64,000 nucleotides of DNA. It comes from Flagellimonas ochracea (lineage in GTDB: Bacteria > Bacteroidota > Bacteroidia > Flavobacteriales > Flavobacteriaceae). Below, piece by piece: positions 27,783 through 63,328 of the stretch (positions are counted from its first letter, which is position 1; each line of letters starts with the position of its first letter). The translations under genes were made by a program, and so were the position numbers. The notes under the pieces were generated by a model. The model was given only the letters and a program-made list of their open reading frames with translations, was not told the DNA's origin and did no database searches. Where the stretch lies: the NCBI RefSeq assembly GCF_009903685.1, contig NZ_JAAABI010000006.1, positions 1-64,000 of the forward strand, written 5' to 3'.

Positions 27783-27812
27783 TACCTTAGTTTAACTTTC
27801 TAACTTAATTTG

Positions 27813-27884
27813 TAGCCCGTAGGGGAATCGAACCCCTGTTACCAGGATGAAAACCTGGCGTCCTAACCCCTAGACGAACGGGCC
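27813..27884 (-). tRNA. tRNA-Glu (anticodon TTC), copy nearest rpsT
   Basis: Reads GGCCCGTTCGTCTAGG at the 5' end on the minus strand, with anticodon loop TTTTCAT (anticodon TTC) and a normal T-arm (GGTTCGATTCC). The 72-nt gene has no encoded CCA. Identical in sequence to the second copy about 54 bp away. Confidence 0.95.
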
Positions 27885-27907
27885 GTTATTTCAAAATAAC
27901 AATCAAA

Positions 27908-27924
27908 AAGCCAAAAATTGGCTT
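27908..27924 (-). terminator. Hairpin between the two tRNA-Glu genes
   Basis: AAGCCAA and TTGGCTT arms with a 3-nt loop; on the minus strand a T-run follows. It could end or process the transcript of the upstream tRNA copy. Confidence 0.55.
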
Positions 27925-27938
27925 CTTGGTTGGACTTG

Positions 27939-28010
27939 TAGCCCGTAGGGGAATCGAACCCCTGTTACCAGGATGAAAACCTGGCGTCCTAACCCCTAGA
28001 CGAACGGGCC
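27939..28010 (-). tRNA. tRNA-Glu (anticodon TTC), upstream copy
   Basis: 72 nt and identical to the other copy: 5' GGCCCGTTCG, anticodon TTC in the loop TTTTCAT, T-arm GGTTCGATTCC, no encoded CCA. The tandem duplicate is ordinary for a heavily used amino acid. Confidence 0.95.
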
Positions 28011-58046: not shown

Positions 58047-59441
58047 TCAATTAACGGCATGCATCCAATCAATAACTTCTTTGGCAATTTCTGGATGGTA
58101 ATTTTCCCTTATATAGTTCCTATACCTCCCTTGAAGGGACAACCTTGCACCTTCTTCCTTGGATTTTGTTCTTGCAAACACATGATCAGCTTCCTGAATT
58201 TCCAAAAAGGTACCATGACCCGGATTTTCTTCATTAATCAAGGACACAATATCCTTAGCAGCTTCATTGCTTAGCGCTTGAAGGTCCGAAGTTCCATAAA
58301 TGGCCAGCACTTTTGATTTTACTTTGGACCATGATTCGGCATTACTGATAGCGTTCATTGTGGAGAAAAAACTAAAATGCCTGCCAAAAAAGTAATCACC
58401 GTCATTGTAGTTAAAAGCATTCATCTCTTCAACCAAGTATTTTTTATTTTTTGGATCGTCCCGTATTTCCTGAGGCGATTTTCCCTCTATTAACCATTGG
58501 TGCATCAATGAAATGGAGTTTCTTGCCATTTCGTCCATTTGCTTCCGGGTTTCCACTCCGTAATAGACAGGTTGTTCCCGAAAATTATCGAGAAAATATT
58601 CAAACCATGTCTTGTAAATTGGTGCATAAACAACAACTCCTTTGGGTTGATACACTTCTGCCAAAATTGGTGCTGTAACACTTCCCATGGAATGGCCAAA
58701 GAGAAACAATTGCGATTGATCCACATAAGGCAATGTCCTAAACTGTTCGTAAGCCGCCCTATATATATCCAGTTCTTCTTTGTAATCAATATCTCTACAG
58801 TGTTTGGTTCCTCCACTATCTCCAATACCTGGTCGTTCAACTCTGTAAACAGTATATCCCGCATTTACAAAATCATCAATTAAACGTTTGGCAGGTTCTG
58901 TTGGGTTCGCCCAAAAATCTTGAGAACCACAATAAATACCTTGTAGAAAGAAAATTGCAGGGGATTTATCCTTCTTTTTTGATCTATGGACAATGGTGCG
59001 CAAAGTCCCAAGTTTTGTTTGAAGTGCACCATAGATTGCCTCGCCATCGTCTACAGGAGTTTCTTTTGGTCTCCCCAATGCTTTTCCATGGATTTTTTTT
59101 AACCTTCCCCGTCTATTAAGATGAACAATTAAATCGTCATCCTGCCTCAAATTGGCAGAAATTCTAAAAACCTGCGATCTGTCCGTTATACGTTGACCAT
59201 TAATTTGTAAGATTACATCTCCCTCTTCCAGCCCTAGGACATCAGCGGTAGTTTCAGGGATACGTCTTGTTATTAGGATTCCTTCATTGGTTTTTAAATT
59301 GTGAACTTTGGCCAACGAATCATTTACGTTAGCCATTCCTATGCCCAAAGAAGCTTTTCGCTGTAATTTCTGGGCAGGTGCTACTGAACAAAACAAAAAA
59401 CTAGCCATAAATGCCAATATCATTTGATTTCTTATATCCAT
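58047..59441 (-). CDS. PDZ-alpha/beta-hydrolase fusion
   Basis: 464 residues. Signal peptide (FLFCSVAPAQ) puts it outside the cytoplasm. Residues 40-115 form a PDZ domain (TTADVLGLEEGDVILQINGQ); residues 130-464 are an alpha/beta-hydrolase with nucleophile elbow GHSMGS (Ser251), acid YGTSDLQ (Asp386) and EADHVF (His420). A full catalytic triad means an active esterase or peptidase is likely, with the PDZ recognising a partner or substrate end. The ATG overlaps the upstream hydrolase's stop region; an ATG 15 bp further upstream is also possible. It is the last gene of the run from the AraC gene. Confidence 0.8.
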   Translation of the reverse strand: MDIRNQMILAFMASFLFCSVAPAQKLQRKASLGIGMANVNDSLAKVHNLKTNEGILITRRIPETTADVLGLEEGDVILQINGQRITDRSQVFRISANLRQDDDLIVHLNRRGRLKKIHGKALGRPKETPVDDGEAIYGALQTKLGTLRTIVHRSKKKDKSPAIFFLQGIYCGSQDFWANPTEPAKRLIDDFVNAGYTVYRVERPGIGDSGGTKHCRDIDYKEELDIYRAAYEQFRTLPYVDQSQLFLFGHSMGSVTAPILAEVYQPKGVVVYAPIYKTWFEYFLDNFREQPVYYGVETRKQMDEMARNSISLMHQWLIEGKSPQEIRDDPKNKKYLVEEMNAFNYNDGDYFFGRHFSFFSTMNAISNAESWSKVKSKVLAIYGTSDLQALSNEAAKDIVSLINEENPGHGTFLEIQEADHVFARTKSKEEGARLSLQGRYRNYIRENYHPEIAKEVIDWMHAVN

Positions 59442-59448
59442 AGCATGG

Positions 59449-61221
59449 TTATCCATTTTTTTTGAAAAAATCATCAATCGCTTTAAAATATTCACCTGGA
59501 GCATCCAACCATCCATAATGGGCACAATTTTTCAGGAGTTCAAAAGTTGAATTCGGAAATATAGCGTGCATAAAAACTGCATGTTTTGGATCTACAATAT
59601 CATTTTCTCCGTGAATGATCAGAACCGGTTTTGTGAATTGTTTCATCGTATCGACCACATCATAGTTTGTTTCCCTCAAATCCGCCCATAATAGCTGATT
59701 TATTCTGGGGTGGTATCTGGAATTGAAAGCCAAACCTCTAAAAACCTTATCCTTATTTTTTTTGTAGAAAAGATATCCTCCTGCCAGGGCCTTGGATTGC
59801 TTCATGGAACGTAAATCTGGATTTTGTACCTCATCCAATTCAGCCAAAGCAATCCTATCGGTCTCTTCCAAGTTGCTCGTCAATCTTTTATCCACAGTGT
59901 TCAGAAAATCCATGTTCATACCACCGGAATGCGACAAAATCATGCCCTTTACATGTTCTGGGTACTTTGCGGCATAGCTCATTGCATAAATCCCCCCAAA
60001 AGATTGCCCAAATAAGGTGATTTCCCGCAGTCCCAAATGTCTTCGTATCGCCTCCATATCCTCAACCATTGCACTCATGGTAACATTGTCTTCATTCGGT
60101 TCAGCTAATTTTGAGAAACCGGTGCCCCGCTGGTCAAACAGCACTACCAAATGGTTCTTGGAAAATTTTTGGGCCAAGGAGACAAAATTATGACTGGAAA
60201 AACCTGGTCCCCCATTAAGGATAAACAATGGCTCGCCTTGTCCAAATATTTTATAGGCCAAGTTTATATCCTTCATCTCCAAATAGGAATAATCCGCTTG
60301 GTTCTTTTGAATATAGTCCACTATGAGACTTCGATATTTGGAGTTCTTAGGTTTTGCTAAATCGCGAAGCAATTGTCCATGGTTCATGTCTTTAGCGTGA
60401 TAAAAATCCATGGTTTTGTAATTGGCTTGGCTGGCAGCGTGTTCTAGCAATTGGGTATAACCGTAGGTGTCCTTTTCCGAGATGACCAACATTGGAATCC
60501 ATTGATTCTCGATGTAAAAAGTGGGCGAGGCGTTTTTAAACTGCTTTGGTGTATTTCCAAAAACAGCTTGCACATGTTTTTCGGCCATATCCCTGCCATT
60601 ATACCTCAAATGGCTTTCATGATAAGCAGCTATGTCATAAGCTCCAGCTATGGGAATTGCTCCCTTAATCTCTCTAACAGATCTTCGAACTTCGGACAGA
60701 TAGCTAGGGTCCATGGCCAATAGAGCGGACAAATGACCTCCCGCGGAATAACCACTCACGAAAATTGAATTTTGATCGTAGTCAAAAGATTTTGCGTTCT
60801 TATACACCCAAGAAAAAGCACGAGCCACATCCTTAATATGTTCAGGATGCTGAACGCCTTCATCAAATTTCGGATTCTTCCAAGTACCAGGACTCAATCT
60901 GTAGCTTATCGCAGCTACTGCAATACCATCACTTGCAAACGCTCGAGCCAAATCTGTTTCAAACTTCCTTCCTCCAAAAGCCCAAGCACCACCATGAATC
61001 CAAATCAGTATCGGTGGATTTTCAACATCTTCCGGAAGAAACAGGTTAAGCTTATGCTTTACGGAATCCGCATCTTTCCCTTCATAATAGACCAAATCGT
61101 GGTGCTCGCGAATATTTTCGACCTGCACCTTGTTTTGGAAACCTGAACATCCCCAAGTGCAGACAAGACATAAAAGGCAAATCAATGTTACAACGAGGGG
61201 CTTTTTTCTAATTTCGTTCAT
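59449..61221 (-). CDS. Lipoprotein with two complete alpha/beta-hydrolase domains
   Basis: 590 residues. A lipobox (TWGCS, Cys25) anchors it. The first hydrolase (residues 45-305) has HGGAW (76-80), GYSAGG (Ser159), SEKDTY (Asp251) and MNHGQ (His281), like esterases of the carbohydrate-esterase or BD-FAE-like group. The second (315-590) has NGGPGF (336-341), DQRGTGFS, GQSFGG (Ser407), GENDIVD (Asp541) and CAHYGW (His568), like proline iminopeptidases. Both triads look intact, giving a double enzyme outside the cytoplasm. It starts 9 bp after the VCBS gene and abuts the PDZ-hydrolase gene. Confidence 0.85.
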   Translation of the reverse strand: MNEIRKKPLVVTLICLLCLVCTWGCSGFQNKVQVENIREHHDLVYYEGKDADSVKHKLNLFLPEDVENPPILIWIHGGAWAFGGRKFETDLARAFASDGIAVAAISYRLSPGTWKNPKFDEGVQHPEHIKDVARAFSWVYKNAKSFDYDQNSIFVSGYSAGGHLSALLAMDPSYLSEVRRSVREIKGAIPIAGAYDIAAYHESHLRYNGRDMAEKHVQAVFGNTPKQFKNASPTFYIENQWIPMLVISEKDTYGYTQLLEHAASQANYKTMDFYHAKDMNHGQLLRDLAKPKNSKYRSLIVDYIQKNQADYSYLEMKDINLAYKIFGQGEPLFILNGGPGFSSHNFVSLAQKFSKNHLVVLFDQRGTGFSKLAEPNEDNVTMSAMVEDMEAIRRHLGLREITLFGQSFGGIYAMSYAAKYPEHVKGMILSHSGGMNMDFLNTVDKRLTSNLEETDRIALAELDEVQNPDLRSMKQSKALAGGYLFYKKNKDKVFRGLAFNSRYHPRINQLLWADLRETNYDVVDTMKQFTKPVLIIHGENDIVDPKHAVFMHAIFPNSTFELLKNCAHYGWLDAPGEYFKAIDDFFKKNG

Positions 61222-61230
61222 TCTATAGCT

Positions 61231-62469
61231 CTATTTATTTCTTTTGAGCAAGAGGTCTTGACCTCTAAAATTGCACAAATACATATCTGCGAGACCGTCT
61301 CTGTTGAAATCGCCAAAAACAAAATCAAAGGTGTAGCATTCTATTTCTGGAAAGAAATCGGACGTTTGATCTTTGAAGGTGGCATCTCCCTGATTAATCA
61401 AGACCATCATTTGTCGTCCGTTGAATCGATTTCCGTTGATCAAATCCAAAAATCCATCATTATTGATGTCAAAGAATGATGCCCCCACGGTTCTAAAGTT
61501 GTTTTTGGGCAATGATTGCTGAGTGATTTCCGTGAAAATTCCGTGTCCGTCATTCATCAAAAGTCGATTTTGGGGATTGCCAACTCCACCAAAGTCGACG
61601 TTGGCGAAAAAAATATCCAAATCACCATCATTGTCAACATCTCCCAGTTCAACCTCACGGGTTTGATCATTTACCGTTGGCAATCGCTCACCGGTCTCAT
61701 CTCTAAAATGGCCCTTGCCATAATTGATCATAATTCGGTTTTGGGTTTCGTTGGCTTCCACAAAATCCAAATCCCCGTCGCCATCCAAATCGCCTAGTTC
61801 AATATCTTGCGTTGTTGATGAATCCGACGGTAATCTCAGTTGGGTCTCATCAGTAAATACTCCATTTTTGTCATTGATCAACAAAAAATTCTGTCCTTGA
61901 TTTCCTATGATCAAGTCTCTAAATCCATCTTCATTAAAATCGGCAGTTTCCACGACGTTGGATATCCCTTTTACTGGTAGTCCCTTTGGATGATCCTCAA
62001 AAAAACCAGGGCCTTTATTGAGATAGTATTCATTTGTTTGATCATCCTCACTAACAAATATCAAATCCACATCACCGTCCTTGTCAAAGTCTCCCATAGC
62101 GATGTCCTCAGAATCATGAGTGTTCTTTGGAAACCTATTTCCGCTTTCATCCACTAAAGAACCCTTTCCATTATTGATGAGAATAACATTTCTTCCAAAT
62201 TCAATGGCCAGAACCACATCCTCATAACCATCGCCGTTAAAGTCAAAAGCCTTTCCAGCCATGGAGTTTTGGTCTAAGTTCTTGCTTTTTAAGGCATTGG
62301 AATCAATATTGTAAATTGTTTCGGATGTACTTTTCTGTTCAACCCAAACAGTGCTTAACATAGACTCCTTCAAGAACAGAAATCCCATGAACAAAACAGA
62401 AATAAATAATACAATGAAAAACAATAGAGCAGACCCTTCGCGTCCCACTATCAATCGATTCAATAACAT
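61231..62469 (-). CDS. FG-GAP/VCBS-repeat protein with N-terminal anchor
   Basis: 412 residues. An uncleaved-looking anchor (hydrophobic 16-34) follows a short positive N-terminus. About seven calcium-binding DxDxDG-like repeats then follow, at roughly 45-50-residue spacing: DFNGDGYED, DFDKDGDVD, DFNEDGFRD, DLDGDGDLD, DVDNDGDLD, DINNDGFLD and DFNRDGLAD. The repeats predict a seven-bladed beta-propeller. Such propellers bind ligands or partner proteins. It lies in the same run as the AraC gene before it and the two hydrolase genes after. Propeller without a recognised enzymatic site. Confidence 0.85.
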   Translation of the reverse strand: MLLNRLIVGREGSALLFFIVLFISVLFMGFLFLKESMLSTVWVEQKSTSETIYNIDSNALKSKNLDQNSMAGKAFDFNGDGYEDVVLAIEFGRNVILINNGKGSLVDESGNRFPKNTHDSEDIAMGDFDKDGDVDLIFVSEDDQTNEYYLNKGPGFFEDHPKGLPVKGISNVVETADFNEDGFRDLIIGNQGQNFLLINDKNGVFTDETQLRLPSDSSTTQDIELGDLDGDGDLDFVEANETQNRIMINYGKGHFRDETGERLPTVNDQTREVELGDVDNDGDLDIFFANVDFGGVGNPQNRLLMNDGHGIFTEITQQSLPKNNFRTVGASFFDINNDGFLDLINGNRFNGRQMMVLINQGDATFKDQTSDFFPEIECYTFDFVFGDFNRDGLADMYLCNFRGQDLLLKRNK

Positions 62470-62521: not shown

Positions 62522-63328
62522 TTATTCGATGGATCTTTTCTTTAAGCACTTTTTTAGATAATGCGCATCACTGAAGCCACAATGAAGAGCAGTATAAGTA
62601 GCATCATGTCCATTTAGAAGCATTTGCTCAGCATGCTGCATTCTAACTTTGGTCAAGTACTTACTGGGAGATTGCCCATAAAAACTCTTAAATTTCTTTT
62701 GAAAATGAAATGGGGATAAGCAGGCTGCCTTGGCGATTTGCTCAAGACTTAATTTTGAATTGTAGTTTTTTTCAATAAACATTCTCCCCTTTTCCATCTT
62801 TTCCCATAAATGACATTGGGTTTCTTTTTTTTTCGCATCAAGCTGAGGCAGTTTACTGGAAGAATGTGTAAGGTATGGGATCAGTCTACCAAAGACGTTT
62901 TCAAGAAAAACATCTGGGTCGCTCCACTGCATCTTGTTAGAGGGGCAAGAAAAAACGTCGGGGACGGCCAAATATGAGGTAGAAATTGGAAAAATTGGAA
63001 CTATGGGAAATTCTGTTTGATACCTGTCCAGTTGCTCTTCAAAAGCCTCCTTCGAAAAATAAGCGCAAACCCCCTTTACCGATTCGTTTGCTTTGATTCT
63101 GGTTTCCAATTCCTGACCGGGTGGCACCAGCAAAAACTGATTTTGACCCACAGTTTTCTTTTGCCCATTGACGATGTACTGTTCGGCTCCATGGAAAACC
63201 AACTTTAAGGAATAGTTTTCGGTTAAGGAATGCGCCCTAAACTCTGTTAGATTGGAAAAAAGGACTTTTCCATCAACCTTCTTTCCCGTAAAGCTGTTGA
63301 TCTCACCCTTTTTAATTTCTACCTCCAT
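62522..63328 (-). CDS. AraC-family transcriptional regulator, soluble
   Basis: 268 residues. An N-terminal cupin-like sensing domain (RAHSLTENYSLKLVFHGAEQYIVNG, near residues 31-55, and FLLVPPGQELE near 65-75) is followed by the double helix-turn-helix in residues 175-265 (LSLEQIAKAACLSPFHFQK and ATYTALHCGFSDAHYLKK). It is the first gene of a minus-strand run (AraC, VCBS, double hydrolase, PDZ-hydrolase) with a 52-bp gap to the next gene, so it likely controls that run. Confidence 0.88.
   Translation of the reverse strand: MEVEIKKGEINSFTGKKVDGKVLFSNLTEFRAHSLTENYSLKLVFHGAEQYIVNGQKKTVGQNQFLLVPPGQELETRIKANESVKGVCAYFSKEAFEEQLDRYQTEFPIVPIFPISTSYLAVPDVFSCPSNKMQWSDPDVFLENVFGRLIPYLTHSSSKLPQLDAKKKETQCHLWEKMEKGRMFIEKNYNSKLSLEQIAKAACLSPFHFQKKFKSFYGQSPSKYLTKVRMQHAEQMLLNGHDATYTALHCGFSDAHYLKKCLKKRSIE

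Follow-up and report, generated by a model that had tools for sequence, protein, structure and literature searches.

Chains that unite two different esterase domains are known from Bacteroidetes, namely the CE6-CE1 double esterases, described for Bacteroides ovatus and Flavobacterium johnsoniae. According to the excerpted text of the study on these systems, both domains are active; of two such enzymes on two biomasses, the B. ovatus enzyme outperformed its separated domains on corn cob, and no gain from the fusion was seen on beechwood (PMC7110780). Single domains with relevance to the present work have been described as well. BD-FAE (PF20434; 6TKX, 6XYC) is a bifunctional acetyl-xylan/feruloyl esterase with the triad Ser128-Asp237-His269 (PMC8165983, in excerpt), and factor F1 is a proline iminopeptidase of MEROPS family S33 (1MTZ). 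In CE15 glucuronoyl esterases, the catalytic acid sits away from its canonical place, at the end of strand 6 (PMC8933493, in excerpt); these enzymes form a different family and serve here as precedent only for a shifted acid in an alpha/beta hydrolase.

Here, we describe a chain that joins a relative of BD-FAE to a relative of factor F1. Its gene lies in a window of 64,000 nucleotides from Flagellimonas ochracea—the whole stretch of DNA that was analysed—and has the following features and neighbours:

59449 to 61221, minus strand: gene P0001, encoding the fused double alpha/beta hydrolase (590 aa) in an uninterrupted open frame of 590 codons
61147 to 61221, minus strand: signal peptide region with a weak lipobox (residues 1–25, Cys25), from the model helix 8–25 and seven chain starts compared by eye
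60298 to 61122, minus strand: domain 1 (D1), a BD-FAE-like esterase domain, residues 34–308, from PF20434, fold and conservation
59452 to 60294, minus strand: domain 2 (D2), a proline-iminopeptidase-like domain, residues 310–590, from PF00561, TIGR01250 below its cut-off, the 1mtz fold and the triad
58047 to 59441, minus strand: downstream gene P0002, PDZ plus alpha/beta hydrolase, 464 aa, start chosen at ATG, from Pfam
61231 to 62469, minus strand: upstream gene P0003, FG-GAP repeat protein, 412 aa, PF13517 at 3.1e-51
62522 to 63328, minus strand: AraC-family regulator P0004, 268 aa, PF00165/PF12833

P0001 consists of known parts in an uncommon, new domain combination, and it is a real, rare gene fusion with two probably active sites. 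A preliminary description of this DNA had seen two hydrolase domains in one 590-residue chain, which is borne out by the single open frame, the whole-chain model and two separate, nonoverlapping Pfam matches: D1 matches BD-FAE (PF20434) at residues 58–248 (E 2.9e-32; 112.4 bits, cut-off 26.8), while D2 matches Abhydrolase_1 (PF00561) at residues 331–574 (E 9.9e-34; 117.5 bits, cut-off 25.8). The oxyanion-type motifs HGGAW (residues 76–80) and NGGPG (336–340) are located where that description had placed them; the motifs GYSAGG and GQSFGG occupy residues 157–162 and 405–410. The AlphaFold model, for which 43 proteins from the window and the loci were used, reaches a mean pLDDT of 93.4 and a pTM of 0.87 for the whole chain, and in it the last helix of D1 stops at residue 307 and the first strand of D2 starts at 312, that is, the linker is close to zero. 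The combination had also been suspected to be unusual, and D1 and D2 in one protein were indeed not found among the papers listed from the open-access PMC literature. The CE6-CE1 enzymes, which likewise bear two different esterase domains per Bacteroidetes chain, differ in that they use other esterase families, belong to xylan loci and have no iminopeptidase-like half, as far as the excerpted report goes. We tentatively read the fused chain as an exported two-site hydrolase that would act sequentially on an acylated peptide or another ester or amide, a reading to which we grant a real but less than even chance.

Pfam, NCBIfam and fold matches agree on a carbohydrate-esterase-like first half and a proline-iminopeptidase-like second half, as had been proposed. 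For D1, the nearest folds by VIA-align include BD-FAE (6xyc with Z 30.1, rmsd 2.3 and 251 aligned residues; 6tkx with Z 29.9, rmsd 2.5 and 256 aligned residues), in a tie with lipase 6nkf (Z 30.1, rmsd 6.2) and feruloyl esterase 4zrs (Z 29.9). D1 shares the fold and the triad Ser and His with BD-FAE, but is about 22% identical to it, has a variable Asp column and is joined to a second hydrolase; unlike for BD-FAE, no xylan setting was recognised at the fusion. D2 shows an alpha/beta core, a helical cap and a complete Ser-Asp-His triad, and shares the cap fold, the GGPG motif and the triad with factor F1. Its best sequence matches are iminopeptidases, with factor F1 as the best PDB sequence match, and factor F1 is also its top Foldseek match (1xrm, E 3.5e-18). 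By VIA-align, the nearest folds of D2 are the esterases 8v16 (Z 29.4) and 6eb3 (Z 29.3), and the factor F1 structure 1mtz scores Z 28.2 with an rmsd of 3.5 over 268 aligned residues.

The catalytic residues of D2—S407, D541, and H568—are invariant in all seven fused chains that we found. Among 38 stand-alone D2 rows, two of which are duplicates, Ser and His are invariant as well, and D541 is kept in 36, with an E in L048 and an S in L096 at its position. D2 probably works like an S33-type serine hydrolase. Judged by its sequence, the label "proline iminopeptidase" is nevertheless unjustified: D2 is 25% identical to factor F1 and stays below the NCBIfam cut-off of TIGR01250 (130.8 bits with the whole chain and 133.7 with the half alone, against 167.65), a model that all 31 rows of set A5 match at 1e-15 or better. 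Factor F1 furthermore has two glutamates, E213 and E245, which we take to bind the free amino end of the substrate. The column of E245 holds an Ile in D2 (I542); that of E213 falls in a poorly aligned stretch, where three of four displayed profile alignments place it on D514 and a single-sequence alignment places it on W512. The Serratia equivalents of these amine-binding glutamates are Glu204 and Glu232 (PMC9147577, in excerpt).

On their shared minus strand, the genes of the window are closely spaced, with gaps of 52 bases between the AraC and FG-GAP genes, nine between the FG-GAP gene and the fusion, and seven between the fusion and the PDZ-hydrolase gene. The composition of this unit varies: the AraC gene stands beside it in five of the seven fused loci (missing in G009 and G218), the FG-GAP gene adjoins the fusion in five (missing in G498 and G385) and the PDZ-hydrolase gene in four (G000, G056, G009, and G500). 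The FG-GAP and PDZ-hydrolase genes are regarded as optional because G498 carries the AraC gene and the fusion without both, at the same chromosomal place—as far as the eye can tell, its unit is flanked by the same two genes, one for an outer-membrane protein and one of OmpA type. Homologues of the PDZ hydrolase within the genus comprise the four cassette copies, at least 59% identical, nine other genomes at 34–39% and two at 30–31%.

The FG-GAP partner gene in five of seven loci could point to a double esterase for carbohydrates, in which D1 and D2 would take two types of acyl groups off a polysaccharide in the manner of CE6-CE1. The presence of BD-FAE among the nearest folds of D1 and the slightly higher Z of D2 against plain esterases than against 1mtz fit with this. 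However, the top sequence and Foldseek matches of D2 are iminopeptidases, and no glycoside hydrolase or SusC/SusD pair was recognised by eye among the printed protein starts near the fused loci, so that we consider this alternative unlikely.

A possible link of the sequential reading to peptides comes from the surroundings of stand-alone D1 genes. A DUF885 gene is the same-strand neighbour of stand-alone D1 in L040, L046, and L093, and a gamma-glutamyltranspeptidase gene in L044 and L045; neither was recognised within about 1.5 kb of the other eight of the 13 stand-alone D1 genes, where candidates were chosen by eye and part of them scanned with Pfam. Other neighbours are FG-GAP (L041), AraC (L046, a distant relative with 25% identity), DUF2891 (L038), and DUF5694 (L085) genes. 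The peptide link drawn from these neighbours is suggestive and no more. A D2 relative is found in the flanks of about 1.5 kb in none of the 13 stand-alone D1 loci, and a BD-FAE-type neighbour in one of 36 distinct stand-alone D2 loci: in genome G252 (L054/L067), a BD-FAE gene of another clade lies 10 bases upstream of the D2 relative on the same strand. Outside the fusion, gene order hardly couples D1 and D2.

The preliminary description had assigned one catalytic set to each half, S159/D251/H281 and S407/D541/H568. Five of these six residues—S159, H281, S407, D541, and H568—are the same in all seven fused chains, but D251 varies. Position 251 reads D, D, E, Q, D, G, and E across the fused chains and is acidic in one of the 13 stand-alone relatives, in all of which S159 and H281 are invariant. 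Since it is conserved neither in fused nor in stand-alone D1, D251 is unlikely to serve D1 as its general catalytic acid, and this part of the earlier assignment does not hold. In the one profile alignment that reaches that far, column 251 lines up with the SEFD Asp of 4zrs, presumably the catalytic acid of that enzyme. The acids that are conserved stand elsewhere: position 249 is E in all seven fused and D or E in all 13 stand-alone rows, and D196 is D in all 20. In the model, E249 forms the very end of strand 244–249 and D196 follows shortly after strand 185–191. From this conservation, E249 or D196 is more likely than D251 to serve as the acid, with the restriction that D196 may be structural because 4zrs and 6nkf have an Asp at the same place in a profile alignment. 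All 13 stand-alone D1 relatives (L038–L046, L085, and L093–L095) read GGGAW where the fused chains have HGGAW, and they are without a conserved acid at the usual place. This clade is a possible unrecognised BD-FAE-like subfamily.

Loss of catalytic residues from one half, which had been named as a reason to doubt two working sites, thus applies to D1 in part: a conserved acid at 251 is missing, but Ser and His are kept. A degenerate or weak D1, retained to bind the substrate or to keep D2 at the envelope while D2 does the chemistry, would be in line with the free variation at position 251 in fused and stand-alone proteins alike and with the GGGAW motif of the stand-alone relatives. We regard it as quite unlikely, as an inactive site should have lost its Ser or His in some of the proteins, whereas both residues are invariant and all 20 rows have acids at positions 249 and 196. 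Moreover, when the window chain is compared with the other six fused chains, D1 is each time the more conserved half, being 63–79% identical against 51–69% for D2. The corresponding dN values are 0.13–0.30 for D1 and 0.21–0.43 for D2, and dS amounts to 2.6–2.7 in two of 12 comparisons and is saturated, hence not computable, in the other 10. Because amino-acid change is slow against this saturated or nearly saturated silent change, both halves appear to be under selection, which is tighter on D1.

D2 weakly matches macrolide esterases and D1 weakly matches a chloramphenicol hydrolase; together with a nearby AraC gene and a patchy distribution, this might suggest detoxification, with two broad hydrolases joined to open a toxin or drug of ester, lactone, or amide type. 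Alpha/beta hydrolases often give weak matches to such models, though, and the scores of 53.5 and 46.3 bits stay far under the respective curated cut-offs of 420 and 500 bits, making this alternative improbable.

The fused chain is present in at least seven genomes of Flavobacteriaceae, namely five of the 71 genomes of the window's genus—the window itself, G056 (Flagellimonas meishanensis), G009, G500, and G498—and two from other genera of the family (G385 and G218). The search for the same two-domain chain elsewhere, proposed at the outset, hereby yields six other genomes that carry it end to end, at 54–72% identity to the window chain. With the best three or four candidates per genome scored, the family sample has the fusion in three of 397 genomes, the window's own counted, and the samples drawn from the order (395 genomes), the phylum (395), and the class (295) have it in the window's own genome only; these samples overlap one another and the genus sample. 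Among the candidates scored, no sampled genome outside Flavobacteriaceae carries the fused chain. The named genome collection, in which the scan detects close relatives only, holds one fused locus, L031, which is the same assembly as G056. A tblastn search of 72,556 plasmid records for spread on plasmids returned two partial matches, both to D2.

The two halves also occur separately. At 1e-40, the family sample has a D1-only match in nine genomes and a D2-only match in 21, and the stand-alone relatives that were fetched comprise 13 D1-only and at least 36 distinct D2-only proteins. Of the 38 stand-alone D2 rows, L078 and L081 represent the same places as L054 and L004, leaving 36 distinct ones; the D2 matches of G250 and G341 lie outside the fetched set. 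The D1-like gene of L067, one of 14 stand-alone rows, falls outside the D1 clade in the tree and is omitted from the counts of 13. Of the 36 distinct D2-only rows, the sets A3 and A5 take in 24 each, and L041, a near copy of L038, is omitted from sets A3 and A4. By eye, stand-alone D1 proteins finish near the end of D1 in the fused chains, and ten stand-alone D2 proteins have a signal-peptide-like start followed by the region that opens D2 in the fusion. These ends and starts match the junction, and hence the chain reads as a mature D1 joined to a mature D2.

In the D2 tree, the seven fused rows form one group with a support of 100/99, the D2 bootstrap being unsettled; in the D1 tree they form one group with 83/85 at an open fork, recovered in 80% of 200 bootstrap trees. 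Long outgroup branches are flagged as well. The branching is compatible between the two: the chains from other genera are basal, followed by L003 and then by the pairs window plus L002 and L072 plus L073, the latter pair being weakly supported (80/28 and 94/39). The simplest reading of these trees is a single fusion event, so that the fusion probably arose once. If so, it would predate the split of the window's genus from the two other genera. Recent tandem duplication of one domain was rejected as an origin: blastp shows no significant similarity between D1 and D2 (best E 0.87), and their best Pfam models differ. That a frameshift, a chimeric contig, or a miscalled read-through joined two genes, as the preliminary description had cautioned, is rejected, with next to no chance left to it. 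Separate genes for the two halves do exist in relatives, but the frame runs without a stop and the junction is shared by seven genomes, one of which is also the named assembly L031. Six assemblies besides that of the window thus contain the fusion, and its rows form a group in the trees of both halves, which speaks against an assembly join.

Residues 8–25 of the window chain form a helix in the model and are hydrophobic by eye, and Cys25 is preceded by T-W-G, which makes for a weak lipobox. A Cys near residue 25 is found in six of the seven fused chains in differing contexts; L036 is without one, and its start still appears signal-like by eye. Export of the fused chain is thus likely from these starts—probably to the periplasm or the outer membrane—and lipid anchoring is uncertain. 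Of the lipobox noted earlier, the T-W-G-C25 stretch is present and export looks general, but the motif is poor and its Cys is absent in L036.

Taken together, two exported serine hydrolases, a BD-FAE-like esterase or amidase and a proline-iminopeptidase-like hydrolase, would have been fused, probably once, with both sites active. D1 would strip an acyl group or a similar ester or amide group, and D2 would then cut the amide or ester newly freed by D1. In this way, one molecule might dismantle a blocked small peptide or an acyl-amino-acid-like compound. In the presence of this compound, the fusion gene would be activated by the AraC-type regulator encoded next to most copies, with the genes for the FG-GAP protein and the PDZ hydrolase as possible optional helpers. 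We favour this succession of two steps because of the architecture and fold, the Ser, His, and D541 set kept in all seven fused chains, the selection on both halves and the grouping of the fused rows in both trees. It is further favoured by the possibly peptide-related same-strand neighbour of five of the 13 stand-alone D1 genes, by the pairing of the BD-FAE gene L067 with a D2 relative in G252, and by the AraC genes beside five of seven fused genes and one stand-alone D1; the CE6-CE1 double esterases provide a precedent for fusion being of benefit. It is weakened by partner-type neighbours in none of 13 D1 and one of 36 D2 loci, by DUF885 being formally of unknown function and by the varying canonical acid column of D1. 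The TIGR01250 score of D2 below the cut-off and the replacement of the F1 residue E245 by I542 weaken it as well, as does the incomplete set of neighbours: among the seven loci, the AraC and FG-GAP genes are each missing from two and the PDZ gene from three.

A more specific version, rather unlikely, has an exported esterase unblocking a peptide-like compound with the help of a relocated acid, which would be either E249, where strand 7 ends, or D196, which follows strand 6. An S33-type domain other than a plain proline iminopeptidase, attached by the four-residue junction, would cleave the product, and the GGGAW clade would be an unrecognised esterase subfamily. If both halves act on one compound, the stand-alone Bacteroidota relatives of each gain a testable substrate hypothesis, and the variable acid column offers a ready test of an esterase working without the usual acid.

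Two further observations concern the surroundings. In G009, the fused cassette is directly followed by a DUF5694 gene (L033:13083-13922), and a DUF5694 gene also stands beside the stand-alone D1 of G878 (L085:666-1610). Within the window, two tandem tRNA-Glu (ttc) genes are found at 27812-28010 on the minus strand.
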